Below, one piece after another: positions 20,432 to 64,000 of a stretch of 64,000 nucleotides of DNA. The DNA comes from Branchiostoma floridae. Lineage: Eukaryota > Chordata > Leptocardii > Amphioxiformes > Branchiostomatidae. Location of the stretch: the NCBI RefSeq assembly GCF_000003815.2, contig NC_049981.1, positions 5,247,992 through 5,311,991 of the forward strand, written 5' to 3'. The first letter of the stretch is position 1; each line of letters starts with the position of its first letter. Below the pieces are notes generated by a model. It was given only the letters and a program-made list of their open reading frames with translations, ran no database searches and was not told the origin of the DNA. Made by a program: the position numbers and the translations under genes.

Positions 20432-23400
20432 CTACTGGAACATCCAGTTGTTATGGTGACGCCTGGGATGACCACGCGGGATGAACTGGACATACTGGAC
20501 AGGCTGACAGTCCAGCGGAGTCCCGCGGGTGGCCAGACCCACGTACCCCTGCTGACAGTACTGACACTGCATCCCCTCCGTGTTGTGTTGGCAGTTCTGT
20601 GGGGGTGGGGCAATAAAAAATTCCTATCAGCATGGCGTACATTCATCGGTTATTTTTCTGTATGTTAATCTCCAAGCAGAGAGCTTACGGTGCCATAAGA
20701 TAGTATCAAAGCTGGACAAAGAGTATAGCCGGCCAAAAGAGTAAGACGACCACCGGAGCATACACCCTCCTAGCTTCACTCCTCTGCCAGCTTTAGCTTT
20801 TGATACTATCTTATGCTCACGAAGGATCTGCTTGGAGATAAGCTTTATAAATACCTTGCTTTCGGCCTCTGTGCGTGGTAGTAGTAGTAGTGAAAAAAAG
20901 GCATCAGTAAAAAGTATATTGTCAACTTAATCTTAAAACGTTAATATAGATATGACAATGACGTCGAATTGCAGAGGGGCTAGGCCAAAGGACTCAGGAG
21001 CAAGCTGTTTCGATATTTGGCGTTCTGGGCTAGACGTGGTGTCCTTGCGAACTTAGGGGCACTTCACACGACTTTCCTGGCTCCACCCTGGCGTAAAAAT
21101 GGCCCGGTCATCACTGAACGATTGTCCCGGTTGTGGACGGGGAGTGATGGCCCCGCTTTTACGTGCTGTGCCCTAGACACATTGGCCTCAAAAAGGCTTT
21201 CCTTAATGTAAGTGTCATTGAAGACAGCGAGAACGTCCTTGTCTCACACATAAATCTCTTGTTCACTTGCGAGGTCCATTTCCGTAATATTTTATATGTT
21301 TGAAAAGTGTAAGGTGTGTTTATGGCAGAAAAGATTTGGTTTTGGCTCTTCAAATTTTTTTTTGTATCTACTGTACGAACGAAAAGTACAAATGCTTACT
21401 GCGCAGACTCCCTGTGATGCACATTCGGTAGCGTGGTTGTTACAGTAGCACGTGATCACCTGCTGGGCTGGAAGAAAAAAGTTTGTTGAGTAAAAACTGA
21501 GGTTCTAGTTCATAGACACCTATAGACATATATATACATCTAGACATCTACACTCTCTCCTTTGAGAAATTTTGTTAAGTCAACTATGAGCATCCCTTTC
21601 TCTACGTATTTGTTCCGGTTGGAAGATGACGTGCTCCAATTTTGATTGTCTATCAAGGACAAAAAACACTTCATGTATTTTCTTTATCTTTCCAATAAAT
21701 TAGCAAAGACAAATCGAAAATATATACCTGCATATACAACAAGCATATAAATTTGTGAAGAAACTCAAGTAGCATATAAAAAGTATGTTTTTCATTTGGT
21801 GGTGTGGGAAAAATGTCTATGTGTGTGGCTATATTATATTACTTTATTATACAAACGCATCTTAAGCTACAATTTACAACATTGCTAAGAAACGAGAAGC
21901 TGAATAAGTGTATTAGAATAGATTGAGAACCCATGTTTTAGATTAGTGTTAGAAACCATGTGCACTGTATTACGACTCTTTGTATCTATACGAGGGGGGT
22001 TCAATAAGTTCTTTGCCTCACCAAGAAATAACAAGCACAACTCAGATTTTCAGGCACAACTTCATAGTATGAAGTCTTTTATCAATATCCTCCAAATTTC
22101 AAATCATTGGAGTCATTACTTTCCAGGCATTCGTTTTTCCTAAATTAGAAGGTAAGTGGCGAGAAAAAAGTTGTGTGAATTGTGATCAGACATGTGTGGG
22201 TCTAGTTTCCCATGCCATAAATTAACAAAAGACGTTGTCAAAATGTTTGATAATGATTCTCTTCCTATTTCAAGCAAAAAGAATTGGGTTTCTAACTTCC
22301 AGCAGCGCAAATTGACCCACACACTCAGGTCAGGTCAATTGTCCACGTTTTTTTCCTTCTCCCTCACCTAACGTTACTGGGTGTCGCCTGCAAAGTAATG
22401 ATCACACTAATTTGAATTTTGGTACATATTTATATAAGACTTTATACTTGACATCTATGCTTCGAAATCTGAGCTGTGCTTATTTTTTCTCGGTAAAGTC
22501 GGGGACTTATTGATAACCCCACGTACATGTATAAAGTCTTATATAAATGTGTACCAAAATTCAAATTATTGTGATCATCATGTTGCAGGCGACACCCAGT
22601 AACGTTAGGTAAGGGATAACGAAAAAAAAAAGGTGGACAATTGATCTGCAACCTGAGGTGTGAGGTCAAATTGTCTGATCACACTTCACCCTTCTTTTTC
22701 TCCCCACTTACCTTCTAATTTAGAAAAAACGAATGCCTGGAAAGTAATGACTCCAATGATTTGTAATTTGGTGGATATTGATAAAAGACTTCATACTATG
22801 AAGTTGTGCCTGAAAATCTGAGTTGTGCTTGTTATTTCTTGGTGAGGCAAAGAACTTATTGAACCCCCCTCGTATATGCCTGTACTTAGCCCGTTATGGC
22901 ATGGATGTGCAATAAAGGCTATTATCTATATTTTCCTCTATGTTCCTAGGGACAAAGGACATTATGCACAAAGTGCCTAATTTTACGAGTTATTGATGTC
23001 AGTATAACCCGTCATTGTCCTTAAGAAACAGAGGGCATTTCTTACATAATGACTTGGCAGGCCTTTGAAGCATACATCAACATGGCGGACTCTATATGAC
23101 GTCATAGTCACGTAGTTGCGAAAAAGACTGACCTGGTTGCTGTTTCCTGACCATGACCTTGGAGGGAGGGCGGATGACCTTGCTGGGAGGATGAATGACA
23201 GCTTGAGGGGCCGGCAGACCATTCCGCAGATGCATGGCCCAGTCTACAACGAGAAATGTGATTTGTTTTAAAACACAAAAAGCATAATTGGTGCATAGAC
23301 ACATATAGTATGCAATAAAATCTTGACGTTTGCTTTTGTATTAAATTGTAATAAATTCACAGTCATAATTTGGTACAGGTCTGAAGTTGTAATGTTCCTA

Positions 23401-26390
23401 TTTTGCCAAAGTAGCCAAAATGTGAAGTGGGTTGAATAATTTTGCATGCGATTGTATAACCTGTTATAATAAAGATGATGATGTATAACCTGTATTCCTT
23501 AAGCTATTCTGTCCACTATCCCACTGTTTATAAAACCTTAGAGTAACAGAAAATGTGTAATATGCATATGGATTTACATTAAGTAATCGTAAGAAATACA
23601 TTTATTAGCACATTATTGGACAAATGATACGAAGTACATATTAACAAATTGCTATTAAATAGGCCGCATATCGTATACCGCTGTCTGTCCCAACTTCTGT
23701 ACACATTCCACTTTTATTTTTGTACCCACCCTAATGCCATTTTATCTTGGATGTACACGCAATGATGTGTTAACCAGTGTTGATACCATTTTTACATCGG
23801 ATTAACACGCTAGCATGTGGACGCTAGCCTTAAGTGACCGCTGCCGTACATTCCGTGCAGACTTCTGTTTGTCTTGCTTCTTTCCATCACTACTTTAAGT
23901 ACAGTACAAATATCCTTAAGTGAGGTTCTATCCGACCCAAATGGACAGATTAAGAGGATTGGGCGCAGCTGTATTTTAGACAGGCTGTAGACAAAATCCA
24001 TACGGATATGTGTTTCTAAATACGAAAATACCAAACGGAAACCCATGAGAAATATGTACTGTGATGGCGTCGCTCAAAAATAATTGTTTGAAGAGGAAGC
24101 TTCCGTTGTATATTTACTGTATTTACAAAGTGCGGTCTTTACATTTTACGCAAGATTTTCAAGGCCATTTACGTATTGACGACTTGCTATAAAACGTTTA
24201 GAAGACTTAAGGTGCACTCTCACTGCACTTTGGACACCGGTGCGGCACTGCGGGGTTCGTAGATGACTCCAGGAATTTCAAAGATAAAGAACGGATTTTC
24301 TTCCGTTTTGTAAATTTTGTTGTCTTCTAAGTCATACTTGTAAGTAATATGCAATATCTTAATCATTAGAAATTGCGAAAATGATAAAACAGTGCCGCAG
24401 TGAACGAACCCCGCAGTGCCGCACCGGTGCTCCAAGTGCAGCGAGAGTCCACCTTTACTGAAGGCGTTTTCGATATAACCTATCGATGTCTATTGCACCA
24501 ATGTCTTTAGATGTCATGTCATAATTCCATTGCATTTACAAAATTTTCTTCAGGGCTTTACAATAAATTCACACCATACCATTTGTCATAGTGTTCAAGT
24601 GTACAAGTAGATTTATGTAGTGGTTTTATTCCCCCATGTTTTGATGTAGCTGACAATGCATTTATCTTATGTATAGGATAGGATTATGTATAAGTACATG
24701 GTGGTTTCAACATTCTGATCCTATAAAACATGTACGACTAAGATATATTAGAAGAGAGTAAACTAAAGATGAAATTGAATAGAATAGAATAGAAACAGAA
24801 TAGAAAAGAATAGAATTTCTAGAATAGACAATACAACACAATACAGCAGAATAGAAAAGAACAGAATAGAATAGAATAGAATAAAATAAAATACAGTAGA
24901 ATAGAATAGAATAGAACAGACCAGAATAGAATAGAAGAGAATAGAATAGAAGAGAATAGAATAGAACGGAACAGTATAGAATAAATTAAAATAGAATAGA
25001 ACGGAATAGAACAGAATAGAATAAAACAGAACAGAATAGAATAGAATAGAATAAAACAGAACAGAATAGAATAGAATAAAATAAGATAAAATAGAACAGA
25101 ACAGAACAGGATAAAATAAACCAGTCTCCTTACAGTCCACGCAGTTTTCCTCATCAGACCCATCCGGACAGTTGTAGACCCCGTCACACCTCTGACGTCC
25201 GGAGATACAGCCCGCGCCATTGGTGCAGGGGATGTGGACGGGATAGTAACAGGAAGTGACGTATTCGAGCTGTTCATACTCCTGAAGGTCATTCAGGCCG
25301 CTACCTGAAACAAACAAATAAATAAAAAGTAACATAATTACCTTTTTCGAGGAGGGTATGTTTTCTTCTGTGTATGTTCTGGAATTACTAGGTGCATCTT
25401 CAGGAAATGTTCGATTCTAGCCTCCTTGCGGACTTCTGTGGCATTGCAGAACATTCGGTTTTTATGCCTATGTGTACATTATAAGACAAAAAGGCAGTAT
25501 AATTCATGAGCAGGCATAATGCATATTCTATTCATATTTTAGGAATGTGTCTAATTTTGAAATTGATCTAACGCATATATTAATAGTATCAAATCCAAAA
25601 GTTCCCCTGCAGTACCGTAACAAGCTGCCAGGGGGCCCAAAATCGTTTTCAGCTCATCAAGACCTACCCACATACCGTATATCAAAACAATCCATCTAGG
25701 CGTAAACAAACGCTATCCAAAATATAACCTTCTTGGCCAAGGTAATAACCAGACATGACGTAACGAATACTGTTTTTATACACTACCCCGGAATGAATGG
25801 GAACCCCATTGTTTATTTGTGTTGGTGACTCGACACCGCACGCAATAAATTACGATGCTTTCCTACCACTGGGCGGGAATAATTGCCCAACGGTTGACTA
25901 ATAGATGCCAAAAGGGAATGTTTTGTATATTTTATACACTTCTCCTCCTGTCAAGACTATCCATTATCACTGCAAATAATGGCACACAAAATGTGATCTT
26001 TCAGCACACGAAAAGCATTCGAAACTGAACATAAGTAAAGCTGTATAACGCTGTAAACACATCTTTACGAATACTTGAATATTGGACTTGGTGTAGTAAA
26101 GATCTGTCTTCATAACGGTTTAAACGGCATGAAAACAATCGATGAATATACAAAAGTTATGGATGACTTCGTTTGCATAGCGGATAGTAAACTTGATATC
26201 GCACAGAGTAAACGTTGCTACAAATAAAAAAATAATCTCACCACTAGCCTGTAATCTAATAATTTTGCAGTCTACGTTATGAAAACGTCTTTTTCATAGA
26301 CAATGATGACAAGAGAAAGAATGTTTTACCTTCTGACCTTGCCAGGGCTGCTACCACCGTGGTGATCACAAACAGTGCCCTCACAATCAT
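20432..26390 (-). CDS. Gene C: secreted LDLa / laminin-EGF protein (5 exons, 191 aa)
   Basis: Exons, in coding order: 26390-26330, 25304-25134, 23243-23133, 21467-21400, 20596-20432 (stop TAG). Phases are 1,1,1,0. Exon 1 encodes a signal peptide ([17 protein letters not shown]). Exon 2 encodes LDLa at about residues 39-75, with six cysteines and the Ca-site end DGSDEENC. Exon 3 is a short linker with two HPPSKV / RPPSKV motifs. Exons 4 and 5 give one laminin-type EGF at about 121-167, split by a phase-0 intron after GVCA. The tail is short and basic with a His-rich end ([13 protein letters not shown]). It is the simplest full member of the family and probably closest to the ancestral layout (inference). 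Secreted; ligand unknown. Confidence 0.85.
20668..20839. mobile_element. Foldback MITE, family 'TCTCCAAGCAGA' (copy 2)
   Basis: Left end ATCTCCAAGCAGAGAGCTTA, right end GATCTGCTTGGAGAT. It contains the shared ATAAGATAGTATCAAAGCTGG arm. It lies in the last intron of gene C. Confidence 0.8.
21468..23132. other. Intron 3 of gene C
   Basis: Dominated by the 882-bp foldback element. The rest is AT-rich without recognisable content. Confidence 0.6.
21991..22872. mobile_element. Mariner-like long foldback element with a nested related copy
   Basis: The ends CGAGGGGGGTTCAATAAGTT and its reverse complement are flanked by TA on both sides (21989-21990, 22873-22874). The outer arms are at least 170 bp. 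An inner inverted repeat (about 22330-22440 against 22525-22650) and a central block at about 22450-22530 resemble the outer terminal sequence. No transposase frame was seen. The TA target and the end sequence suggest a Tc1/mariner relative. Confidence 0.75.
24210..24454. mobile_element. PIF/Harbinger-like MITE, family 'CACTCTCACTGCACTTGGGG' (copy 2)
   Basis: AGGTGCACTCTCACTGCACT ... AGTGCAGCGAGAGTCCACCT, flanked by TTA (24207-24209 and 24455-24457). 245 bp. Confidence 0.82.
24764..25118. repeat. (AGAAT)n pentanucleotide microsatellite
   Basis: About 350 bp of AGAAT/AGAAC/AAAAT units, ending some 16 bp from the donor of the gene C LDLa exon. The 190-codon minus-strand frame is the real LDLa exon running on into this repeat. 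Confidence 0.95.
25305..26329. other. Intron 1 of gene C
   Basis: AT-rich, with no repeat or coding signal recognised. Confidence 0.6.
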
Positions 26391-29304: not shown

Positions 29305-32300
29305 TTACTTGGGCATGCGGAAGGTCATGACGGGTTTCTTTGGCTGCACGACCTGCACGGCTACGAGCTGCTGGGCGGGCCGGCAGGAGTCGGCTGTACC
29401 CTGGGTGGCGAAGCCCTCGTAGCCGTCCTTGCACTTCTCGCACTGGTCGCCCTCGGTGTTGTGCTGGCAGTCCTACAAATCAATCAGAAATCGCGATTAG
29501 GAAAGTTCTACCACACAAGTCCAAATGTATCGATACTGTTTGATACTGATTGGTAACGAAGGAAATTGGTTTCTTTCAACAGCTTCATTGATGTCAAAGA
29601 ATACGTGAAATGTCTTAAAACATTCAGGTTCCACAGGACACCATTTGAAGCAAAATAACCGAGCCATTGGTAAACAAGTAGCAAGTAGAGTTTTTTTATT
29701 GTAACGCGCCATGTGAGCTTGAGTGCGTCAGTTATAGTTAGAACTCATGTTGATTTTGCTGTATCATACATATGTGTGTACAGTTTTTGTGTACAGTTTT
29801 TTTCATATAACGAATGACATGTTGTCATAACGCAATTTCTAGAAATAACGCAATTTATCCTGAGGGCGGCAATGTTCTTTCAATTTCAGTAAACTATTCA
29901 TTCGTTTATTCCCTACATTGACAACAAAGCTATCAGCAAAAGGCCAAAGAAGCCTCTACTTACTGCGCAAACTCCATCATCAGCGCACACTGTAGAGTGG
30001 TTGTGGCAGAAGCAGGTGATGCGTCTCTCTGTAGAATGAATAGGAAACCAACAGACATTATTTCACCAAACTGTGTCGTAAGCTGCCTTTATCTTTGCAA
30101 AATACATAGATAAAACTATTTTCCTACAAAGAAAGATGGCAAATACTACTGAAGTTCGAGGAGTCAACCTCTCAGCGTAAAATCATTCTTGATTCATAGA
30201 TGAAAGAAAGTTACATATATCCCAGGTCACGTTGGTCATTACTGATCGAACATGCAGGGGGTTTATACGATAAAGTCTGACAGATACTGTTACAGTAGTT
30301 CTCAGCAATTCTTGCGAAACGTTAGTGCTACAAAAATGACGGATATACAAACAGTAGGGAAGTTAAGGACTGTGCATTGTCTTACTCTGTGGACCCTGGC
30401 AGATTAAATAGTTCTAGACAATGCGTAAGGTATTCATTACGAAAATATCAGGGATCTGGTGTACAGATTGATTAATGGAATTTTCAAGCAGTGACTACTT
30501 TTTAAAGCTAAACACGCGTACCTCCAAATTTTCGATGGCTATCAGTCCATTTTGTTCACATAGTGACCTAGTTCTCGCGAGAGTTGCGAGAACTAGGTCG
30601 AGACTAGGTCACTCCGTGAACAAGATGGACTGATAGCCATCGAAAATTTGAAGGTACGTGTGCTTAGCTTGAAAAGTAGTCACTGATGAAAATTCTATTA
30701 ACTATGTACATACGTGACTAATGAATCTCTTCAACAACAGTACAGAGTGAATCATTGTCTTACCCGGTGGAGCCTGGCAGATGTAATGGCGGTCCCGGCA
30801 GCAGGACTCGTCGTTCCAGCGGAAGTACCCCCCGCCGTTCGGGAACATCTCCACACAGTCCTCATCCTTGCCCTGGTCGTTGGGCTCGCCCTCCGCCCAC
30901 TTCATGAACTTGCCCAGTGGGGTGGAGTCAGCGTACATGAACTGGTCTGTACATTAGTGACAATAGCCTGTGTAAGGTTCCATTGATACATCTTGTTGAA
31001 TTGTAGCTATTTAATAATGGTACGGGTCAACGTCACACCATATCGTGATTTATCTATCGGAACTCAATATAAAACTTACAAGACTTTTCAGTTCATGTTG
31101 TGCTTTTGTGTATCTTATAAGGTTCTATTTACTTAACAAGATATCAATAACGGTAATTTGCAAGATCATCAGCTGGCAATCCCCTCCCATATTGTTCTAA
31201 AACATGTATAACTGATGTTTTCATGTTTAAATCATCGATATCAACAGTCTTTGGTTGTTTGATGCAATACAGACCATGGAAATTTTTAGCAATTTTTAGA
31301 CTCCATTCAATTATGTGTCCTTTAAAATCAGTTAAGTATAAAAAGCTGCTCGTTTTTTTGCTTATTTTGATCTAAATTAAACTTTCCAATATGCTCGCAA
31401 AATCTATTCTTCATGGAGTGCTTTTAAGATTACAAGACAATCAAACAACATAAGTCAACATAAGTTTAAATGTATAACGTAAGAAGTATTGAAGTAAACT
31501 GAAGTGTTAAAATGAACTTGACTCAGTGAACATAAGGTAATGAGGAGGGATCAAAGGTATTCAGTATCAGAAAACAATAACATAAAGAACAAAACATAAC
31601 TACACGATACGTACTCTCGGTAGCTCTGTCCTCCAGCCCGATCCAGTGGTTCTCACCGGGGTTCACCACGTTCAGGTACTCAGACAAGAACATGTGCTGG
31701 TTTTCGTCTGAAAAAATATATGTGAGTTCTATTTATTGCAAAGCTCTGACTTCTATTCTTTGAACTAAAATATAGCAACTAGTGTCTACTATTAGTGTCT
31801 AGAGTTAGAAAAAGGGACAACATAATAAGCCGTATTCGTCAGATCAAGGAGAAATATACTGTTGACGGTAGCCGTGGTGTAAAAATTAAGAGGCTTGTTT
31901 AAGATCTTTCAACGTCTCCTTGTTGCCTTTACCCGTAACCGTGAACAGAGAGCTTGTAGCGAAATGGCTTCTTCAGTTTGCTAAATGTTTAAAGGAATAC
32001 TGTTGATAGTAAACAGGCTAGGATTGATGTAAGGTGTACGGGGTTTGGTTGGGTTCTAGGATACACTTACTGTTGATGGTAGCCAGGCTTGCTCCCAGTT
32101 CACTGCACTCTCCCTCGGCTGTGGTGTAGTTGACTGGCGAGCCGGAGAAGCTGTAGCAGATCCTGTCATGGCGGATGAAACCCTGTGGGCAGATCAGGTT
32201 GACCACCTGCGGCAGCACCACGACGTTCTGTGGGGCAGGCATCACTACGGGCTGGGCCTTCATTGGGGCTGTGGGAGGGCCATTGAAGAAATCACATCAT

Positions 32301-35300
32301 AAGAAACAGACAGATGGTCGTGTTTAGCCTACGTGTCATCAGTTGGCTGTGGCACCCATTTAGACTCCAAGCAGACCTTACGGTGCCCTAGATATAATAT
32401 TAGTACCAAGGCTCTGTTGAAGATCCTTATCTGTCACCCAATCTTTTTGTCAGTCATTTTACCATTCTGTATGGAAGATTGATAGACATTGTCTTAATGT
32501 GTTGTACTTATTATGGCTTATCAACTTATAAATAGGCTGTTATTAACACATTATGTATAGTGTCGCTGAAAAAAATGCACAGTGCTTAAACTATTGGTAT
32601 TTAAGTATGTTTAGAATTAGAGTAGCTGCCATGCCCTGAAAATATGCATGAAAAGATCAGATTTTATGTTTCAAGATTAGACAATGGTGAAGAAGATCAT
32701 TTATAAAGAATGGCCACGAGTCTGAAAAAAACATAGTTGCAGAGTGTTTGAATAAAGGCAGCTGAAGGCTTGATTCTGATGAATACAGATTCAGGGCTTA
32801 CTTCAATTTGATTATCAAGAACAATGCATGGTTTGCACACAGCAAAGAAAATGCATATTAGGCCACGGCAAGTAAATCTTATAGATGACATTAGCGCAAT
32901 CATCCATGATGTTCACATGCTCAATGCAGATATGCACGTTTACACCAGCGCAGAACTTCTGAACGACGCATGCCGCTTCCCCGTCTCAGAAATGCTGAAG
33001 AATGCTGGCAACTTGCAGTAGATTATAAACTGATGCTTTGAAATGGGAAGAAAGGTGCTGAATTATGATTTATTAGGCGCTGCACGCGTTAATGGTCGCC
33101 TGAGCTCGGCACTGTACCCGGCCGTCCCTACCTGACGGGCGGGGCATGTACACAGTCTGCCCGTTCTGAGGTTGACCGTTGCCCTTTTGCTGTTGTTGAT
33201 TCGCTACAGGGAATGAATCGGGTTGAATCGTTAATATCATCACGGATTTTAGCTTGAAATTTCGTAGGTTTCATTTTCAGTTTGAAGCACCATTACCATA
33301 CGGTATGACACTGCGTTAGGGTTCTAAATGCTTGCACAAAATCTATGATAAAAACAACATGCTTTTATGTGGAGCTAGGCGTTGATAATAGCTTACAACG
33401 CCTTCTACATTCTGTTATTCACATGAATGTTACAGTCATTTATAACCCACGTCCATACATACAATAGCAGCTGGGATAATTCAATATATGCATATGATGA
33501 AGAGAAGCTTGAAAATCATGTGGAAACTGTTAAGTTGAATGACGCGAGTGTGCTGCATTCGCGGCAAAAGAAGGTTTAGATCAATGGTTCTGATCGAGTG
33601 CTACAGCGTCACTGATCATTGCATAGTAATACATGTTCGCCGAGTAGCTTAGGTGCATATTTACAGCAGCGCAGTATTTCAGCCTTTTCATCCCAAAGTG
33701 CTGTAAAATCTGGCAACTTGGCTAATGTTTGGCAAAGTATTAGCAATAGATTTTAAAATGATTATGATATATTGAATGGTGTTGTTCATTAGCACTGTAG
33801 AATCTGGCAACTTGGCTTTTGCTTGCATTAGCAGCGGATAAGACGATTGCTTTTTAATTAAAAGAATGAAGTGCTGTATAATCTGGCAACTTGGCTGTTG
33901 CTCGGTATGGTATCCGCGATAGATTTGAAGTGAAGATTGCTTTGCAGTAAAAAGAAACACTGTAGAATCTTATCACTCTTGTCTGTCGCGGATTAGCGGG
34001 GTATTAGATGATATGATTCTTTTCCAATGAAAAGAATGGTGATTGCTCATTAATGCTCGTTAATGGATGCTTGAGCTCGCTCGGCGCTGTACCGGACCGT
34101 CCCTACCTGGCGGGCGGGGCATGTACACAGTCTGTCCGCGCTGAGTCTGTCCCTTGCCCTTTTGCTGTTGTTGATTCGCTACAGGGAACGAATAGGGTTG
34201 AGTTGTTAAAATTAAAACAGATTTTAGCTGGAAAGTTCGTAGGTATATTGGTATGTTTCATTACCATGCGGTATGAAACTATGGTTTAGGATTCAAAATG
34301 GCATGCTTAAACAAAATCTATGACAGAAACGGCATGCTTCTCTGTTGATCTAGACATTGATCATTGTTGACAACGCCTCTTCAAGGGCATTTTACATACT
34401 GGTAAGTATCTGTACGTTACAGTTATCTATGGTCTGACCAGTGCCTGGAGTTGAACAATATGCATACAAATATATGTAGCAGCTGGGATGATAATAAATT
34501 AGGCAATGATGAAGAGGAGATTGAAATCATTTTAAAACTGTTAAATGATTGACGTGAATCTGCAGATATTCACGACAAAAGAAAGTTTATACCATTTCAA
34601 TTAATGATTATGAGTAATAAAGCGTTGCTGTTTATCTGCAAAGATCACATTCATGACATTATTTGCATACAACTATTGTAATGCGTGTGAGCTGAGCAGA
34701 TGAACTATATCTATGCGCAGCATCGCAGCACCGTTTTTCAGCTTTCCCGATCCAGAGTGCTGTAGAATCAGGCAACTTGGCTGATATGTTTGGCATAATA
34801 TTGGTGGTAGATTTTAAAATGAAGATTGATTTGAAAAAAAGGTGCTCGATCATTAGTGCTAAAGAATCTCGCAACCTGGCTGTCGTTTGATATCAGCTGC
34901 AGCTTTTGGCATAGTGATTGGTTTGCAGAAGAAAGAATGGTATTTTGTCGTTAGGCGCATGAATGCGTGCTTGAGCGCATTTGGCGATGTACCGGGCCGT
35001 CCCTACCTGGCGGGCGGGGCAGGTACACAGTCTGCCCGTTCTGAGGTTGACCGTTGCCCTTTTGTTGTTGTTGATTCGCTACAGGGAATGTGTACTGCCC
35101 GCGCTGAGTCTGACCTTTGCCCTTTTGTCGTTGTTGATTCGCTGAAGCGAATGAGTACTGCCCGCGCTGAGTCTGACCTTTGCCCTTTTGTTGTTGTTGA
35201 TTCGCTGCAGCGAATGAGTACTGCCCGCGCTGAGTCTGACCTTTGCCCTTTTGTTGTTGTTGATTCGCTACAGGGAATGAGTACTGCCCGCGCTGAGTCT

Positions 35301-38300
35301 GACCTTTGCCCTTTTGTTGTTGTTGATTTGCTACAGGGAATGAATCGGGTTGAATAGTTTAAATCATAACAGATTTTAGCTTGAAAGGTCGTAGGTGTTG
35401 GTAGATTTCATTCTGAAGCATCATTACCGTACGGTATGAAACTTTGGTAAGGGTTAAAATAGCATGCTTGCACAAAATTATGATAAAAACGGCATGAGTT
35501 TTGTGGATCTAGGCATTGATAATTGCTAACAACGTCTTCTACATACTGTTAATCACATGTATGTTACAGTCATTTATGACTTGAACAGTATTGATATAAT
35601 TTGATAAGATGCATAGAAATAGCAGCGCAGCCGGTGGTGAAGATGTGCTTGAAAATCATTTGCAAACTGTTAAATTGATGGACGCGAGTCTGCTAACATT
35701 CGCAGCAAAAGGAGGTTTAGATTATTCCAGGTAATAGGTCTACAGCGTCAATTTACACTGCATATGTCATGTTAACATGCATAATTTGCATACAGCGATG
35801 GTAATACAAATTAGCTGAGTAGTTCGGTACATATTTACAGCAGCAATTATATGTAATAGTACTTCAGCTTTGCCATCCCAAAATGCTGTGGAATCTGGCA
35901 ACTTGGCTGTTATTCGGTATTTTAGCAGTAGATTTTAAAATGAAGATTGATTTGCAAAAAAGAATGGTGTTCGATCATTAGTGCTGTACAATCTGGCAAC
36001 TTGGCTGTCATTTAAGGATCAGCTGCAGCTTTTATATTTTGACATAGTGATTGCTTTGCAGACGAAAGAATGGTATTTTGTCATTAGGCGCGTTAATGCG
36101 TGCTTGAGCTCGCTCGGCGCTGTACCGGGCCGTCCCTACCTGGCGGGCGGGGCATGTACACAGTCTGCCCGCGCTGAGTCTGACCCTTGCCCTTTTGTTG
36201 TTGTTGATTTGCTACAGGGAATAAATCGGGTTGAGTCGTTAAAACTATAACAAATGTTTAGCTCGAAAGTTCGCGGGTTTGGTAGCTAGGCTTCATTACC
36301 ATGCGTAATGGAACTATAGGTTATGGTTCAAAATGGCACAAAATCTATGATAAAAACAGCATGCTTCTCTGATGATCTAGACATTGATCATTGTTGACAA
36401 CCCCTCTTCAAGTTTATTTTACATACTGGTAAGTATCTATCTGTTGCAGTTATCTATAGCCAGACCAGTGCCTGGGGTTTAACAATATGCATACAATTAG
36501 CATATGGGAGAATATAAGACTAGGCAAAGAGCTTGAAAATTATTTGCAAGCCTATAAATGATCGGCGCGAATCTTCAAACATTCACGACAATAGAAGGTT
36601 TAGATCACTCCAGTTATTGGTTATGAATGATACAGCATCACTGTTTACTGCACAATACCAAGTTAGCAAACATTATTTGCATAGTTGTTTACAGCAATGG
36701 CAGTGCATAATAGCTGAGTAGCTAACTTTTAAAGGTGCATGTTCATATATATAGCAGCGCTGTGATTTAGATTTTCCATCCCATAGTGCTGTACATAGAA
36801 TCTGGCAACTTGGCTGTTGCTCGGTATGGCATCCGCGATAGATTTGAAGTGAAGGTTGTTTTGCAGTATTAAGAAAGTTTGATCATTAGCGCTGTAGAAT
36901 CGGGCAACTTGGCTCTTGTTTGCTGCGGATTGACAGAGGATTAGTGGTTGCTTTGATGTTTTATTATTAGGCGCATTAATTGGCGTTTGAGGCTGAGCTC
37001 GCGTCGCTGTACCGGGCCGTCCCTACCTGGCGGGCGGGGCATGTACACAGTCTGCCCGCGCTGAGTCTGACCCTTGCCCTTTTGTTGTTGTTGACTCGCG
37101 AACGAATATTGTTGAGTCTGGCCATTGCCCTTTTGTTGTTGTTGACTCGTGAACGAATATTGTTGAGTCCGGCCATTGCCCTTTTGTTGTTGTTGACTCG
37201 CGAACGGATATTGTTGAGTCTGGCCATTGCCCTTTTGTTGTTGTTGACTCGCGAACGGATATTGTTGAGCCTGGCCATTGCCCTTTTGTTGTTGTTGACT
37301 CGCGAACGGATATTGTTGAGCCTGGCCATTGCCCTTTTGTTGTTGTTGACTCGCGAACGAATAGGGTTGAGTCTGCCCTTTGCCCTTCTGTTGTTGTTGT
37401 TGACTCGCTACAGGGAACGAATAGGGTTTAGTCGTCAGATTTTAACTTGAAAGTACTGGCACTGGCCGCAGTACTGACACGGGACGATATGATGATGGTG
37501 AGCTTGAAAGTTCGTGTTGATGTTGGTAGCCTTCATTCTGAGGCCCCATCACCATATCGTATGAAACTATGGGTTATGGTTCTGAATGGCGTGCTTTAAC
37601 AACATCTATGCTGCTACGATAAGTCCAGCATGTATGTGAATCTAGGCATTGAACAATATTGCCAACGCCTCTTCAATTTCATCTTACATGCTGGCCAGGG
37701 CTCGAAGTGCATATGCATATGCAGTGGAGCTGTGCAGGTATTTCTTATGTCTACCTGCACCTAACCTGCATTGGTACATGTACTGGGATTTTTTATTGGT
37801 GTATATGGATTGTTATTAGCTGCATTGACTGGTATCAGCTATAAAATATAAACGAAAAAATAGCAATGGTTCCTGAACAAGTTTAGTATGATCCATACTT
37901 TCTAAATTCAGAGTGGTGCAGGTAAAACTTGGTGCAGGTAATTTTCAATGTTACCTGCACCAGTGCAGGTATGCAGAAAAAGTATTTCGAGCCCTGACTG
38001 GTAAGCTTGTGACATCTATTACCTGACCAGTACCAATAACAATAACATTGTATAGTAGCACGGTGTGTACTCACCACCCATCATCACGTACTGAGGCTGC
38101 TGGTGCTGGGCCATCACTGAAACAGAAGCAGAAAATGTAATGCCATAATTACGTCAATCAATGTTCATTAAATCAAATAAATAACTACATCATCATCATT
38201 AGAATATTGTATTATATTGCAATTCCTGCCTAGTTGCAAATTGCTGGTAACATGAAAGTGGCAGGCAATTGATATAGAACAGTATATAATATGCCTAGTG

Positions 38301-41300
38301 CAGCCTTGCCATATATTATAAGTTCTTTTTTTAAACAAACTATGAAAGGCGAAAAATCCCACTTTGTCTGTAATGTGTGGGATATGTGATGTTAGGAAGT
38401 AGAGATAAGAAGGTACAAGACACACTTCTGATAGAACATGGCTTAGACACAATAGCTTAGGCCCCCTTTCCACTAGACGGCGATTGCGCTGTACTCTAAC
38501 TGCGACCTAAATAGGATATGTGTAACCTTCGCTTTCACACTGGGTATATCATACAAACGCAAAAGTGTGACTGAGAAGACACACAAAGTTCAAAAAGATT
38601 TCTTTCCTATAGAATTTGTTGAACGATTTGTCAAATTTGAGGTCGCAGAGAGAGCGCGGCGAGAGCGCCCATTTTTGTGTGTCCTTTTGGAAAGGGGGTA
38701 TTAGAGACAAGAGCCCTTGGGCTAGATGATTGAAATATAATTCAGTAGTATCAGCAATGTGCTTGATACAAAACAGTGACTTCAAAATATGAAGGATGCC
38801 TCACCTGGTGCCGGCTCCAGGCCACCCTCATCAGGTGCCCCCTCTGCTGGAGGGAGGTCGGCCGGGGCATCAGACACGCCTGACAGACCCCTCTCGAAGT
38901 AGCTCCACCCTGCAAAAGGCTGGAACTCGCCCTTCACCATGTTCTTGTTGCGGGAGGACAGGTGGCACTGCCCGTCCATGCTGTGGTCGAACGATCGGCA
39001 GAAGAAGGTGGTGGACTCCAGGCAGAACTGGGCGCACTGCTCGGCGTTCACGTTGGCGAAGGAGGCGTCGTTGTGCCCCTGGATGGCCATGCCGATCTCC
39101 TGGCCGAAGCCGGTCAAGGCCGCTAAGACAAGATAAAATAACGTTAAAGATCTTAAAATTATCATTTTGAAGTTTCCTTTCATTTTAAGTGTTTAAATGT
39201 TTTGTCCTTGTCACTGAAGATGAAAATGCGGAGAAACCTCTAGTTGGCTACTCGTCTTTGAGCCTCCCGGGTCATCCTCATCTTCATCATCATCATCATC
39301 ATCATCNNNNNNNNNNNNNNNNNNNNNNNNNNNNNNNNNNNNNNNNNNNNNNNNNNNNNNNNNNNNNNNNNNNNNNNNNNNNNNNNNNNNNNNNNNNNNN
39401 NNNNNNCAGTAAGTGTTGGAGAGTAATTTCATCTTGTCATTACAAACCTACAGTTACCGGCTTATCATTCAGATATCTGTCCACATTGGGTCTATGGTTG
39501 TCTACCAACTGACTCATATCGGGCCATATACAACAATGTAAAACTAACTACATCAGTGTTGTTAGATAATCTCCAAGCAGATTCCTCACGTGGCATAAGG
39601 CAGAAACATAAGCTAGGGAAGGAGTTTAGCCGGCAGAGGAGTAAAATTCCTTCCCCAGCTTATGTTACTGTCTTATGCCACGCAAGGAATCTGCTTGGAG
39701 ATTAGTTGTTAGAAGCGTTAAAGCACTTCAAGCCGAGCACGACGGCATACTCACACTCTGCGGGGATCATGACCATGGCGGGTTGGTCATGATGGGCAAA
39801 GTAAGGTTCGATGTGATCTTCCGCCGCAGCAGAGGACTCTTCACCATTGCCTTATGTAGAGAACGGTAGCCGAGGGGAAACACACAAGCGTTAAGGTAAG
39901 CGTTAAGGGTTAAAGTCAAAGGTATTCCTGGATAGAGTTTAAGGAGGAAGGGGCTCCGGTCTGTACCCTTTGTCTTAAGACCTCCTTCTCACTAAACAGC
40001 GAACACTGAGAAACCGATGAACTACCAAATTTGGTTTCTTTTATAATGGAAGATGCTGCATTTTGAAAAAAGTGTGATGTGAAATACAAAGCATACGCTA
40101 TGGAAAATTTGATCTTCACCGATGAAATTCTTTGAATGTCCTGTCAAATGTTCAGTTGCTCGGTGGGCATAGCTTCTAGTGGAAAGGGGCTAAGAGAATA
40201 TTGGACAGACGTTCTATCCAGGGAACGTACCGATATAAGTTGGTGTCAGTAAAGCCAAGAGACACACATTGTATTGTTATTTGGATGAAGTGTGTAGCAG
40301 TTCAATAATAATATTAATCATTGCCAGGTTACAATCAGTGCTTCAAAAATATGTCATGTATCTATGTATGTTGCATTGGTATGTGCGTTAATATGAGCTG
40401 TATTGGAATTGAAGTTACAAAACTTGGCACACGGCTTGCATATGTTACCAATTACAACAAAAAACAAAGCTTGATCAACCAGAGCAAAGCATTCAGGTTA
40501 AAACTTTGTTAATTTTAACAAACACCCGCGGGGAGAGATGTTCGCAGCGCAGGGAATAGCACCATTCCAGGATGATTTGTGGAGGTTAGAATTTACCGGG
40601 CTGGGGGGCGACCATCATCACCGTCTGTGGCTGGAGCTGCTGCTCGGCCTTGACGGGCTGTGCGCCCGGGGCCGGGGCCATCACCACCTGGGGAGCCTGC
40701 TGCTGCTTCACGGCGTACACCTGTTGGGCTATGGACAATACAAAACATCTGTCAGTAGAATTCTCATCAAGCAGTGACTACGTTTTAAAATTTTCGATGG
40801 CTATCAGTCCATCTTGTTCACAGAGTGACCTAGTTCTCGCGAGAGTTGTGAGAACTAGGTCGAGACTTGCGTGAATCTCCTGCCCCTCACCCCGCCTCCT
40901 TGCGGAGCTGAGTAGGTGTAGGTAGGACTTAGGCAGCTCCCAGCCATCATTGCGGTTCAGCTACATCTGTTAGAATAATCAGCTCTTTTGTAGACATTGC
41001 TTACCTCGAATCTTTATAGCCAGCACGACAAATGAAAAACTTTCGGCCCCCTTGACGACCCATCTCTACAAAGCTGACCATTTTCGGCTTAAGTGCCTAC
41101 GTCATTATCCAGTCCTTTTATCCCTTTGGTGTCTTCCTCGACGTAGCATCACACCTTATACCCGACACAACCAAGACAGGACTTTTGACTTTCTTCAGCA
41201 TAGCTGACCTTTATAGATATACTTATTTAAGGATACTTTTTTAAGGACATTTTTTTGTATATTTTTGTATTTTAGCCTTTTACCTTTTCCTCTCTTGTAA

Positions 41301-43946: not shown

Positions 43947-46660
43947 AAGTCACTGTATTCTGCATCTACATTCTTTGACGAATCTTACAGATCTTGCACA
44001 CAAAAAGCATTTTTTTTTCAAAACAACATATCAAAGCCTGCTTACTACAACAATGTTGTATATTAACGTGTAGGTATCAAATCTAATCTAAAACATCACT
44101 TCTTTGATACCTATACGTTTTATACGACAGACATGACAGACTTGAAGAAAAACTTGAAGAAAACGTTGTTGTATTATCTCATGAGTAACTGTCTGAACTT
44201 TAAGTACTAGAAATATTCGAAATTTACAAGATTCGTGAGATCTGCCTACAATAGGAAAGAAAAGCTAGCCCAATCACCTTAAACAAGAATCTATATCAAC
44301 AGAAACAGTAAAAGAAACTAGACCGAGCCAAAGGATTGTAGACAGGGTAGTTTAAAAAAGTAATAAAATTGTAGATTCTACCTGAATCTCGGACCAGCCC
44401 CTATAATCATATTGACTCTGTGATAATAAAAGATTATACATTGAAGAAGGAACGCAGCAGAATAGAAAGAAAACAGCCAAAGATGTAGTTTAGGTGGGGT
44501 CTCGGTAGCTTTTGCCAGCAACCACCTAGAAACTCCAAAGATTCAACACCGGAATTTGAAAGAAAAGTTATGTTCACTGCCTCCACCACGAAATCCTACA
44601 CGAAAAAGAGAAAAAATCCTAAAGCTATAAAATGGTTAGGAAGATCAGATGGGAAGTTTGAAAAGCAAGGGAGTTGTTTCATTTACCTGGTGCACAGTTA
44701 GCCTCGTCTGACCCATCCCTACAATTGTACTGGCCATCACAACGCTGGCTCTGAAGAATACAGTTGGATTGGTCACTACAGGCGAGCTGGGCCGGCCACG
44801 AGCAGCGAAGCATAATCTGTTGTACCGCAACCTGCTTCTTCGGCGCCCGACGGACCCGGTTCAGAATCCGTTCTTTCTCTGAAGAAAAACAAGAGCGCAC
44901 GATAGGTTTCATCCACCTGATCGAGGACGTATGGACATCTAGATAGGATTAACTGCTCAAAACCGAGCGAGAGGAGTTCCATCATAGGAAGATGGCTGAG
45001 AGTTTGCGGGAAGAGTGGAGACGAACTCCGAAAAAGTAAAGGCAATGACTGAAAAAGGTCCAGTGTGAAAGGAAATTCATAGAGAGACTGACAGAAGCCA
45101 TTAGGCCAAAACGTGTCAGGACGAGAAGTTGAGAAACTTTCATCCAACAGTAAAGGCAATGACTGAAAAAGAAAGACTAGTGTGAAGGAATTTCATAGAG
45201 AGACTGACAGAGGCCTTAGGCCAAAAGTTGTCAGGAGAAGTTGAATTACATCCTACAGTACGGTGCATCGAAGTTGCAGAGATTCTATTCCCAGATCCTT
45301 ATTCTTGAGATCTTCGTTGCCGTTAAAAGAAGGAATCATTAGTAGTTGGTCGTGGATTCATCTCATAAAGCTTTGCAGGCTTTATTTAGGAAAAGAACAC
45401 TGCCTGAACTGAGACAGAACGTTTTCGATGTTCAATAAACATTATTGATGATCGGCGACGATTCTCAACTTCTTTGTCTAGTTGGTAGCTCAAGGAATAC
45501 AAACAGGACATTCAAACGATAGGATTTCTACGTCCTTGAGTCCATGATTGACAAGCTAGGAGGGGCAAGGTAAAAGGTTTTCAGCGTCGTCCAACAGGGT
45601 CTTTTGCAATTTCAAGTGTCCCTGCTAGCTGATAGTAACCATAGTCATTGCCATAAAAGCCTGTAATCAATTAGCGGTGTCCTGTTACAAGACGTGGCAG
45701 CTGTCTTCACAGTCGAGAAACTTTAAGATGCCAATCTCTGACACAGTTACTTAGCGTGTGTCGGTGAAGGCGGGCTCAAAACAGACGACCACTTAGCACC
45801 AGAACCCGATGACCTTGGCGATACGGATCGCACTCTGATCGTTTATTTTGTTAAGGTCTTCTATAGCCCAACACAACAGTCGTCACATAGCTGAGAAACC
45901 ACAGGGTTCCTTGCCAAATGCCTGTATATGATACCTAGACATGTCTAGCTGGCACGTGGGGGGGTTGGACAAATTCCAACATTGTTGAACCTAACCGAGA
46001 CAATGACTTAACAGTCTGGCTCTCTCTAACATTACCGTACAGTGTAGATCTGCAAAAGCACTCATGCTTCGGGTTTATACTCATTAGTAGTGAACTTGAG
46101 ACTGTTCCCTGCACATTATGCATTGGCCTGGCTGTAGACTTGTAAAATTATTCAAGATAATTGTTCTCTACAACTACGATTATACACATGTTCTCCAGTG
46201 AATTTCAAGACCCGACAAACAGTCCAATTCATGTAATACATGGCTGCAATCATGCAATGGTCTTTTCTAGTGTTGCGCATTCAATAGAAAAGAAAAAGAC
46301 AGCAAGAGAGTTTTCGTTCCTACAAAGAAGTCGATCTTCTGTGCTATCATACCTCTGTAAGTGATAAACCTTTTGGTTTCAGGAAATATGTATAAAAGCA
46401 TTTCTACTCTGGTTAAAGACGATATGGTTTCTCATTGCTGCCGTTTTTACTCGTTAGAGTTTTTTCCAGAGCTAAGCCAATAGTACCCATTGATCGCAAC
46501 CTCCTACGAATAGATTTCAATTCGTCTTGCTTTTATGGAATAATGTGTCAACTTTAAATTTTGTAAAAAAAATTGAAGGAATTGCGGACTTACCCTCGCA
46601 GTAGGAGAAGTGGAAGGTGGCGACTGTGGCGACCAGGAGCAGAACTAATTTGGCGTTCAT
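29305..46660 (-). CDS. Gene D: large secreted LDLa-PAN-QKG repeat-C-type lectin-laminin EGF protein (16 exons, 824 aa)
   Basis: Exons, in coding order: 46660-46594, 44878-44687, 40728-40597, 39850-39755, 39122-38805, 38116-38075, 37407-37027, 36211-36140, 35330-35007, 34178-34107, 33203-33132, 32268-32071, 31707-31615, 30946-30764, 30028-29964, 29472-29305 (TAA). All introns are phase 1 except the last (phase 0). Layout: signal peptide; RVRR furin-like site at 30-33; LDLa 48-84; Gln/Val linker; small acidic/His exon 4; PAN/apple about 163-225 (Cys 192, 196, 204, 215, core CRSF); QQQQKG repeats 283-589; CTLD 616-745 with WIGL (677-680), EPN (707-709) and WND (730-732), predicting Ca-dependent mannose-type binding; laminin-EGF 753-799; tail to 824. 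Exon 4 is the least certain. The intron between exons 4 and 5 contains the N gap. Probably a secreted multidomain matrix lectin (inference). Confidence 0.83.
30029..30763. other. Intron 14 of gene D
   Basis: Contains the foldback MITE and, at about 30375-30412, a decayed duplicate of the 3' end of the CTLD exon. Confidence 0.6.
30478..30695. mobile_element. Foldback MITE with CTCGCGAGAGTTGCGAGAAC centre (complete)
   Basis: GAATTTTCAAGCAGTGACTA at the left is mirrored by GTAGTCACTGATGAAAATTC at the right. The arms are about 95 bp and include CCATCGAAAATTT. A half copy lies at 40761-40868. It sits in the intron after the last CTLD exon of gene D. Confidence 0.82.
30947..31614. other. Intron 13 of gene D
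   Basis: AT-rich, nothing recognised. Confidence 0.55.
31708..32070. other. Intron 12 of gene D
   Basis: Short intron with two decayed copies of the exon 12 donor-side sequence (near 31857-31876 and 31998-32020). Confidence 0.5.
32269..33131. other. Intron 11 of gene D
   Basis: Contains a fragment of the TCTCCAAGCAGA foldback family at about 32365-32400. A 65-codon plus-strand frame at 32824-33021 could not be assigned and is probably not a gene. Confidence 0.5.
35080..35345 (-). repeat. Coding minisatellite in gene D exon 9, 21-residue unit carrying acceptor-like sequence
   Basis: Four units of the type ANQQQQKGKGQTQRGQYSFPV plus a terminal 24-codon unit. The segment coding SFPV|AN is the same TTCCCTGTAG|CGAAT as the true splice acceptor, so the 63-bp period includes a splice-site copy. 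Confidence 0.92.
37075..37407 (-). repeat. Coding minisatellite in gene D exon 7, 17-residue unit
   Basis: The exon has seven units of the type ASQQQQKGNGQTQQYPF: one of 18 residues, five of 17, then a terminal unit merging into the GQTVYMPRPP end. 127 codons in all. The antisense strand also stays open because the unit is a multiple of three. Confidence 0.93.
37696..37996. mobile_element. hAT-like MITE, ends CAGGGCTCGAA (complete)
   Basis: CAGGGCTCGAA at the left and TTCGAGCCCTG at the right, with internal GTGCAGGTA / TACCTGCAC inverted motifs. About 301 bp. CAGGG ends suggest hAT. I could not see a clean 8-bp duplication. A partial inverted copy lies at 62486-62625. Confidence 0.72.
38460..38700. 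mobile_element. PIF/Harbinger-like MITE, family 'CCCCCTTTCCACTAG' (copy 3)
   Basis: GGCCCCCTTTCCACTAGACGG ... TTTTGGAAAGGGGGTA, flanked by TTA at 38457-38459 and 38701-38703. It carries the TGGGTATATCATACAAACGC core. Confidence 0.8.
39280..39306. repeat. (CAT)n run at the edge of the assembly gap
   Basis: TCATCATCATCATC continues into the N stretch, so the true repeat length is unknown. Confidence 0.85.
39307..39406. other. Assembly gap (100 N)
   Basis: Exactly 100 N, the usual placeholder for a gap of unknown size. It lies in the intron between gene D exons 4 and 5, so a missing exon cannot be ruled out. Confidence 1.
39568..39703. mobile_element. Foldback MITE, family 'TCTCCAAGCAGA' (copy 3)
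   Basis: AATCTCCAAGCAGATTCCT ... AGGAATCTGCTTGGAGATT, with arms of about 58 bp. It lies about 50 bp from the donor of gene D exon 4. Confidence 0.85.
39974..40193. mobile_element. Diverged MITE related to the 'CTTTCCACTAG' family
   Basis: Left end TTAAGACCTCCTTCTCACTAAACAGCG, right end TTCTAGTGGAAAGGGGCTAAG. The interior differs from the other copies. Confidence 0.5.
40761..40868. mobile_element. Half copy of the CTCGCGAGAGTTG foldback MITE
   Basis: Matches the left arm and centre of 30478-30695 (AAGCAGTGACTAC, CGATGGCTATCAGTCCATC, TTCTCGCGAGAGTTG) and then breaks off at the centre. Confidence 0.8.
40869..43491. other. Intron 2 of gene D, proximal part
   Basis: No exon, RNA or clear mobile element recognised. 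A C/G-run segment lies at about 42570-42610. Several 60-90 codon frames have no family features. Confidence 0.5.
43543..43784. mobile_element. PIF/Harbinger-like MITE, family 'CACTCTCACTGCACTTGGGG' (copy 3)
   Basis: AGGCGCACTCTCACTGGACT ... GTGTGGTGGGAGCGCACCT, flanked by TAA (43540-43542 and 43785-43787). It lies between two direct repeats of about 45 bp. Confidence 0.82.
43872..43947. repeat. (CAT)n trinucleotide microsatellite
   Basis: About 75 bp of CAT with CAC interruptions. The poly-His, poly-Ile and poly-Met frames are artefacts. Confidence 0.95.
44879..46593. other. Intron 1 of gene D
   Basis: An imperfect local duplication lies at about 45028-45120 and 45147-45240 (AAGGCAATGACTGAAAAAG ... 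CATAGAGAGACTGACAGA). Otherwise nothing was recognised. Confidence 0.55.

Positions 46661-62111: not shown

Positions 62112-64000
<1,889 letters not shown>

Follow-up and report, generated by a model that had tools for sequence, protein, structure and literature searches.

What becomes of a splice acceptor once a coding minisatellite has copied it into the very exon that it serves: does the transcript acquire a ladder of exon starts, or are the copies read through as protein? The question is raised by E9, an exon in a predicted minus-strand gene of the lancelet Branchiostoma floridae, which lies in a 64,000-nt stretch of contig NC_049981.1 (positions 5,247,992 to 5,311,991 of assembly GCF_000003815.2; hereinafter the window, in whose coordinates all positions are given). 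A preliminary description of this DNA had proposed that the E9 minisatellite captured its own acceptor, offering a route to repeat-number variation by splicing as well as by DNA slippage. The sequence supports capture of the acceptor by the array. We posit, with a probability of about 0.6, that E9 is a coding version of the "mirages" of lancelets, i.e., minisatellite-like duplications of intron–exon boundaries that, in the excerpts of a lancelet globin study, are named after a case in Adh3 (PMC3087553); the outermost acceptor at 35331 would be mainly used and the array translated.

The exon family and its border-spanning array

The exons of the gene model were set from reading frame and GT/AG borders, and all acceptors in it are inferred. 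The model runs on the minus strand from 39183 to 29305 and encodes 682 aa in 12 exons with no internal stops. Its predicted protein begins with an N-terminus that by eye is signal-like, followed by a cysteine-containing N-terminal part, Q/K/G-rich repeats, a C-type lectin domain and a laminin-type EGF domain. Downstream of the repeats, Pfam recovers Lectin_C (2.1e-19) and EGF_LMN_ATRN, the laminin/attractin EGF (1.4e-09); the label PAN/apple for the first exon was given by eye only and has no Pfam match at E up to 0.01. The gene product is probably a secreted C-type lectin, with the array inside a Q/K/G-rich linker. A family of five exons, all of phase 1-1, separates the N-terminal part from the lectin domain, with TTCCCTGTAG directly before and GTAGGG directly after each. 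The designations E7 to E13 are names only, E9 (so labelled in the preliminary description) being coding exon 5 of 12 in the model. The gene and the family are as follows:

29305..39183, minus strand: inferred 12-exon gene (reading frame, GT/AG borders, Pfam)
37027..37407, minus strand: E7, 381 nt, with an array of 6 x 51 nt (Tandem Repeats Finder, borders)
36140..36211, minus strand: E8, base exon of 72 nt, A type (sibling alignment)
35007..35330, minus strand: E9, 324 nt, phase 1-1, a 72-nt base plus 4 x 63 nt (borders, siblings)
34107..34178, minus strand: E11, base exon of 72 nt, A type (sibling alignment)
33132..33203, minus strand: E13, base exon of 72 nt, B type (sibling alignment)

The lengths of these exons resolve into simple sums: 72 nt for each of E8, E11 and E13, 72 + 4 x 63 for the 324 nt of E9, and 72 + 3 + 6 x 51 for the 381 nt of E7. 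The introns at 36212-37026, 35331-36139, 34179-35006 and 33204-34106 have a common segment around GCCAAGTTGCCAGATTCTACAGCACT, which occurs more than once in some of them.

Tandem Repeats Finder delimits the E9 array at 35032-35343 (period 63, 5.0 copies, 93% matches). On the minus strand the unit crosses the acceptor at 35331/35330, confirming the claim that the repeat period spans the intron–exon border. Its parts are the following:

35331..35332, minus strand: border (outermost) acceptor AG, with an AG-free zone of 47 nt (borders)
35079..35330, minus strand: copies 1-4, 63 nt each, with an exon body of the E8/E11 type (diagnostic sites)
35007..35078, minus strand: last copy (5), a full 72-nt base exon, mainly E13-like (diagnostic sites)
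35284..35287, minus strand: decoy GCAG, preceding the first internal AG by 16 nt and present likewise in each of the four internal copies
35268..35280, minus strand: captured intron end of copy 2, TCATTCCCTGTAG, 13/13 against the border (alignment to the E9 border)
35205..35217, minus strand: captured intron end of copy 3, TCATTCGCTGCAG, 11/13 (alignment to the E9 border)
35142..35154, minus strand: captured intron end of copy 4, TCATTCGCTTCAG, 10/13 (alignment to the E9 border)
35079..35090, minus strand: captured intron end of copy 5, CATTCCCTGTAG, 12 nt exact, hence 12/13 (alignment to the E9 border)

The AG falls at one shared column in all five copies (the border and four internal ones), every internal AG, taken as an acceptor, removes a multiple of three bases, and the five hypothetical starts of E9 give open proteins of 682, 661, 640, 619 and 598 aa. 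Thus, the earlier statements that AG keeps one phase in all internal copies (4/4, or 5/5 with the border) and that five acceptors lie in frame at 21-residue steps both stand. Other claims hold in part. The internal segments, described as SFPVAN or SFAAAN, translate as SFPVAN, SFAAAN, SFASAN and TFPVAN; they do copy the acceptor (13, 11, 10 and 12 of 13 positions match), but only the final 12-13 nt of the upstream intron are present in them. Likewise, a period divisible by three and five open proteins mean that repeat number could change in frame by slippage, whereas variation through internal acceptors is not favoured given their 14-nt AG-free zone and the absent upstream region (see below).

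Splice signals and the competing readings

Because GCAG lies 16 nt upstream of each internal AG, the AG-free zone is 14 nt at all four internal sites, against 19-66 nt at 17/17 reference acceptors, which are themselves inferred and include five duplicated family borders. The gene contributes 11 of these (19-66 nt in 11/11), and six acceptors of related EGF exons located elsewhere in the window have zones of 25, 58, 39, 27, 48 and 23 nt; of all AGs on the minus strand of the window, 39% reach a zone of 14 nt or more and 27% one of 19 nt or more. Splicing at the decoy GCAG itself would shift the frame, and the four resulting models would first meet a stop at aa 466, 445, 424 and 403. The region further upstream also sets the internal sites apart: at positions -14 to -33 they match the five family borders at only 2-5 of 20 positions, while the borders match one another at 12-18 (the E9 border and the other four at 12-17). 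Pyrimidine content and the yUnAy motif were rejected as discriminators, as they fail to separate the E9 border from its copies. Hence, the E9 border stands out by its AG-free zone and conserved upstream region and not by a branch-point motif; moreover, its intact AG precedes all internal AGs in the transcript. The extra acceptor copies look too incomplete for routine use.

The sibling array in E7 offers a natural contrast, as the captured AGs kept in the E9 array are absent from the inner copies of E7. Here, Tandem Repeats Finder reports a period of 51 with 6.6 copies at 37062-37399. Where the border has TTCCCTGTAGCGAG, the inner copies have TTCGCGAG or variants, without AG at the captured acceptor position though with an out-of-frame AG still inside; this sequence is consistent with a 6-nt loss that took out the captured AG. 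The sole in-frame internal AG of the array is in the first unit, at 37377. Lacking captured AGs and having just this one in frame, the array should be exonic if E7 is used. The E7 unit joins an exonic GACTCA to an intronic GACTCA, suggesting a possible role for microhomology. We favour the outermost acceptor of E9 on four grounds: its AG-free zone, the conservation of the region upstream, the E7 array and periods divisible by three.

Several observations weigh against this preference. The pyrimidine share at -20 to -4 is 0.59-0.65 at the internal sites and 0.59-0.82 at the gene's 11 inferred acceptors, two of which have 0.59. The E9 border has a single yUnAy in its AG-free zone, at -11, a feature that it shares with three of the four internal copies, while the yUnAy at -28 of the other four family borders is missing from the E9 border. 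Every copy further contains ACTCAG, whose A at -27 makes it a weak candidate branch point, with GCAG following 10 nt later. Excerpts of a paper on the AG exclusion zone state that AGs within 12-15 nt can be bypassed, and if GCAG were bypassed the candidate could in principle reach the internal AG. In view of this candidate in each copy, we term the use of internal acceptors no more than unlikely. The coding nature of the array also meets some resistance: third positions account for only two of the ten variable columns among the four internal copies, such that the E9 array itself would bear no sign of purifying selection. On the side of the preferred reading, E8 and E11 differ by four synonymous and no nonsynonymous changes. 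They are the sole pair of this sort among the ten that the base exons form when the last copies of E7 and E9 are counted as such; the other nine have one to six nonsynonymous differences, which weighs against it.

Two lines of evidence were set aside. Retention of the AG in all copies does not point to selection, as it is expected by descent: with 13 of 63 columns variable over the five copies and 10 of 63 over the four internal ones, the probability that no variable column falls on the AG is 0.63 and 0.71, respectively. Nor is the captured AG the only one to keep the frame; E9 contains 28 AGs, 19 of them out of frame, and an in-frame GGGCAAAG is also found in four of five copies. The open frame is likewise weak proof of coding: across the array, two minus-strand frames out of three, that of the model and a second, have no stop, and nor does one frame of the plus strand.

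How do the alternatives fare? Were several of the five acceptors in use, isoforms would arise in 21-residue steps. Such a ladder by splicing is possible but not favoured, and we consider it unlikely. It draws on the five open in-frame models (682/661/640/619/598 aa), on the exactness of the intron end over 13 nt in copy 2 and 12 nt in copy 5, and on the yUnAy at -11 shared by the border and three of four internal copies; furthermore, excerpts on a family of prawn C-type lectins that contain tandem repeats describe an exonic alternative acceptor, although one of 11 nt and in an exon other than the repeat exon (PMC7536079). Yet, the internal copies have no upstream intron region, their AG-free zone of 14 nt ends at a frame-breaking GCAG, and a linear search, as described for introns whose branch points are distant, would meet the border AG first. 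The lancelet mirages are also reported without aberrant mRNAs (PMC3087553, PMC3902484). Splice-aware aligners are reported to create spurious spliced alignments between repeats (PMC10632439), for which reason a ladder seen in short reads would call for caution. A rather unlikely opposite places the genuine acceptor innermost, at 35079; E9 would then be a plain 72-nt exon such as E8, E11 and E13, and splicing would remove the four additional copies. The last copy is indeed a complete 72-nt exon, E13-like at five of six diagnostic sites, the array shows no third-position excess, and, per the same excerpts, published mirages leave the mRNA regular (PMC3087553, PMC3902484) and the authors of the PGBD5 study kept repeat-derived sequence out of the protein (PMC3902484). 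However, this innermost site is the poorest, with no yUnAy within its 14-nt AG-free zone and an upstream match to the borders of 2-5/20, and the intact border acceptor comes earlier. Moreover, both 63 and 51 are divisible by three, a property that an intronic array would not require and to which we assign a chance of 1 in 9, and captured acceptors cannot remove the E7 array.

A donor-like AAAG|GTCAGA occurs in four of five copies, first at 35302-35303 and then at the equivalent site of the three copies that follow, in the phase of the captured acceptors. Exonic introns from it to the captured acceptors would have at least 99 nt (36 + 63n). E9 could conceivably shorten in 63-nt steps by alternative acceptors combined with removal of such exonic introns, a scheme that we regard as improbable; if true, it would provide lectin length variants from one allele. 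Least probable is that the number of repeats reflects a fault of the assembly or a single haplotype from a collapsed locus: the window does contain a run of 100 N at 39307-39406, and excerpts on lancelet PGBD5 report arrays that vary in copy number between assemblies (PMC3902484), but the differences at 10 of 63 columns among internal copies and the distinct type of the last copy make plain assembly stutter unlikely.

Probable exchange between neighbouring exons

The copies of E9 fall into two types. Six columns distinguish E13 from E8 and E11 alike, and five of the six fall inside the repeated part. At these five, copy 5 of E9 has the E13 state, and at the sixth that of E8/E11. In copies 1-4, four of the five diagnostic sites have the E8/E11 state and the remaining one has a third base. 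This division, E8/E11 type in copies 1-4 and mainly E13 type in the last, points to an exchange of sequence between neighbouring exons. Pure self-duplication of E9 is ruled out for copies 1-4 by their E8/E11-type body; accordingly, while the unit does hold an intron 3' end, the earlier notion that the minisatellite captured its own acceptor is too simple. E9 resembles an E13-type exon that received E8-type bodies joined to a short intron end, which then multiplied; slippage alone does not account for such a mix, and exchange between neighbouring exons seems necessary. Copies 1-4 agree in body type and copy 5 departs from it, but copies 1-4 are not identical; excerpts on the lancelet globin BflGb6 describe homogenised inner copies with the boundary copy left out (PMC3087553), and neighbouring-exon exchange would account for the split in E9 equally well.

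The introns between the family exons tell a comparable story. When each intron is named for the exon that it precedes, 24 of 27 informative gap-free sites on the acceptor side (alignment columns 700-1228) pair E8 with E11 and E9 with E13. Over the whole intron alignment this pairing takes 31 of 50 such sites, against 12 and 7 for the other two. In columns 0-400, 9 of 14 sites instead place the E8–E9 intron with the E9–E11 intron, and in columns 400-700, 5 of 9 favour the E7–E8 intron with the E8–E9 intron. As the first 400 columns favour a pairing other than that of columns 700-1228, the alignment indicates that these introns are a mosaic.

Taken in order, the sequence shows that a 72-nt exon was duplicated together with its intron, giving the series of phase 1-1 exons, and that two members of the series contain tandem repeats of the exon body plus the last bases of an upstream intron, with a period divisible by three. 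The E8/E11-type bodies, alongside the mainly E13-type last copy and acceptor-side half of the intron, indicate that exchange between neighbouring exons helped build the E9 array. We further propose that the outermost acceptor is mainly used and the internal AGs are translated as coding sequence, such that the length of the protein would vary by DNA repeat number and not by choice of splice site.

Beyond the family, pairs of related EGF exons lie on the minus strand at 2129-2452, 8510-9663 and 20501-21467 (identity 56-68%), which suggests other genes with this EGF domain nearby. For the lectin and N-terminal pieces there is no second match with E below 0.4 within the 64-kb window. The window also has a large minisatellite near its end (63103-63995, periods 292 and 96 bp), an AATAG pentamer array of approximately 69 copies (24773-25118), and a minus-strand open frame in which an LDL-receptor class A-like motif is seen by eye (44679-44948).

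Lancelet mirages and the meaning of an apparently coding case

The E9 array fits the mirage kind already described in lancelets, with its apparently coding nature, short intron end and duplicated-exon setting as differences. According to excerpts of the globin paper, mirage copy number varies between haplotypes (6 and 3 in BflGb6), the Adh3 mirage shows somatic instability, and many copies have AG/GT signals, with the Adh3 data and globin reverse-transcription PCR suggesting undisturbed splicing (PMC3087553). Excerpts of the PGBD5 paper, which cites TnC, report 60- and 108-bp arrays overlapping splice sites (PMC3902484). As in these cases (BflGb6, BflGb9, Adh3, TnC and PGBD5, so far as the excerpts describe them), where the unit spans an intron–exon border and many copies have cryptic splice signals, the E9 unit lies across an inferred border and has AG in 5/5 copies. 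A functional tandem acceptor, in contrast, would have an AG-free zone in the range of the inferred real acceptors, which the internal sites do not (14 versus 19-66 nt). Unlike the described mirages, E9 has a period that is a multiple of three, copies that are apparently coding, only 12-13 nt of intron, and a place in one of a row of duplicated exons with two exon types mixed. A coding reading of mirage repeats has precedent, as a PGBD5 gene model, per the excerpts, took the 108-bp repeats as a 57-residue exon, which the authors excluded for want of expressed-sequence-tag or mRNA support (PMC3902484).

Other systems offer more distant parallels. The prawn Rlecs are, like the E9 gene, C-type lectins whose coding sequence includes a variable minisatellite beyond the lectin domain, for which slippage and alternative splicing have been proposed; however, their units of 30 and 33 bp are in the second exon and the alternative acceptor in the fifth, and the excerpted text does not mention a border-spanning unit (PMC7536079). 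The SmPoMuc mucins of Schistosoma, as excerpted, share with this gene a row of approximately 1-kb units, each of one short exon plus flanking introns, but their exon units have 27 bp, and either trans-splicing or the repetition of exons is invoked for the long repeats in transcripts; that excerpt does not mention copies of an acceptor within an exon (PMC2576457). Intron gain by internal duplication carrying splice sites is discussed in the excerpts of the lancelet globin paper (PMC3087553). As in E9, a splice site is thereby carried into coding sequence, but in E9 no new intron is evident and only the acceptor side is copied. This mode of intron gain was reportedly also treated by Gao and Lynch in 2009 and by Zhuo in 2007. 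Our literature search on amphioxus mirage minisatellites found nothing beyond the globin and PGBD5 papers (PMC3087553, PMC3902484), and that on amphioxus C-type lectin exon duplication or minisatellites, in which no query was aimed at the gene name, found nothing related.

E9 thus adds an apparently coding, in-frame case to the boundary-spanning repeats that have been described in lancelets as leaving splicing undisturbed. Together, E7 and E9 offer a clean setting for the question of what extent of a copied acceptor suffices for its use by the spliceosome; they also bear on how the ends of introns turn into protein sequence.

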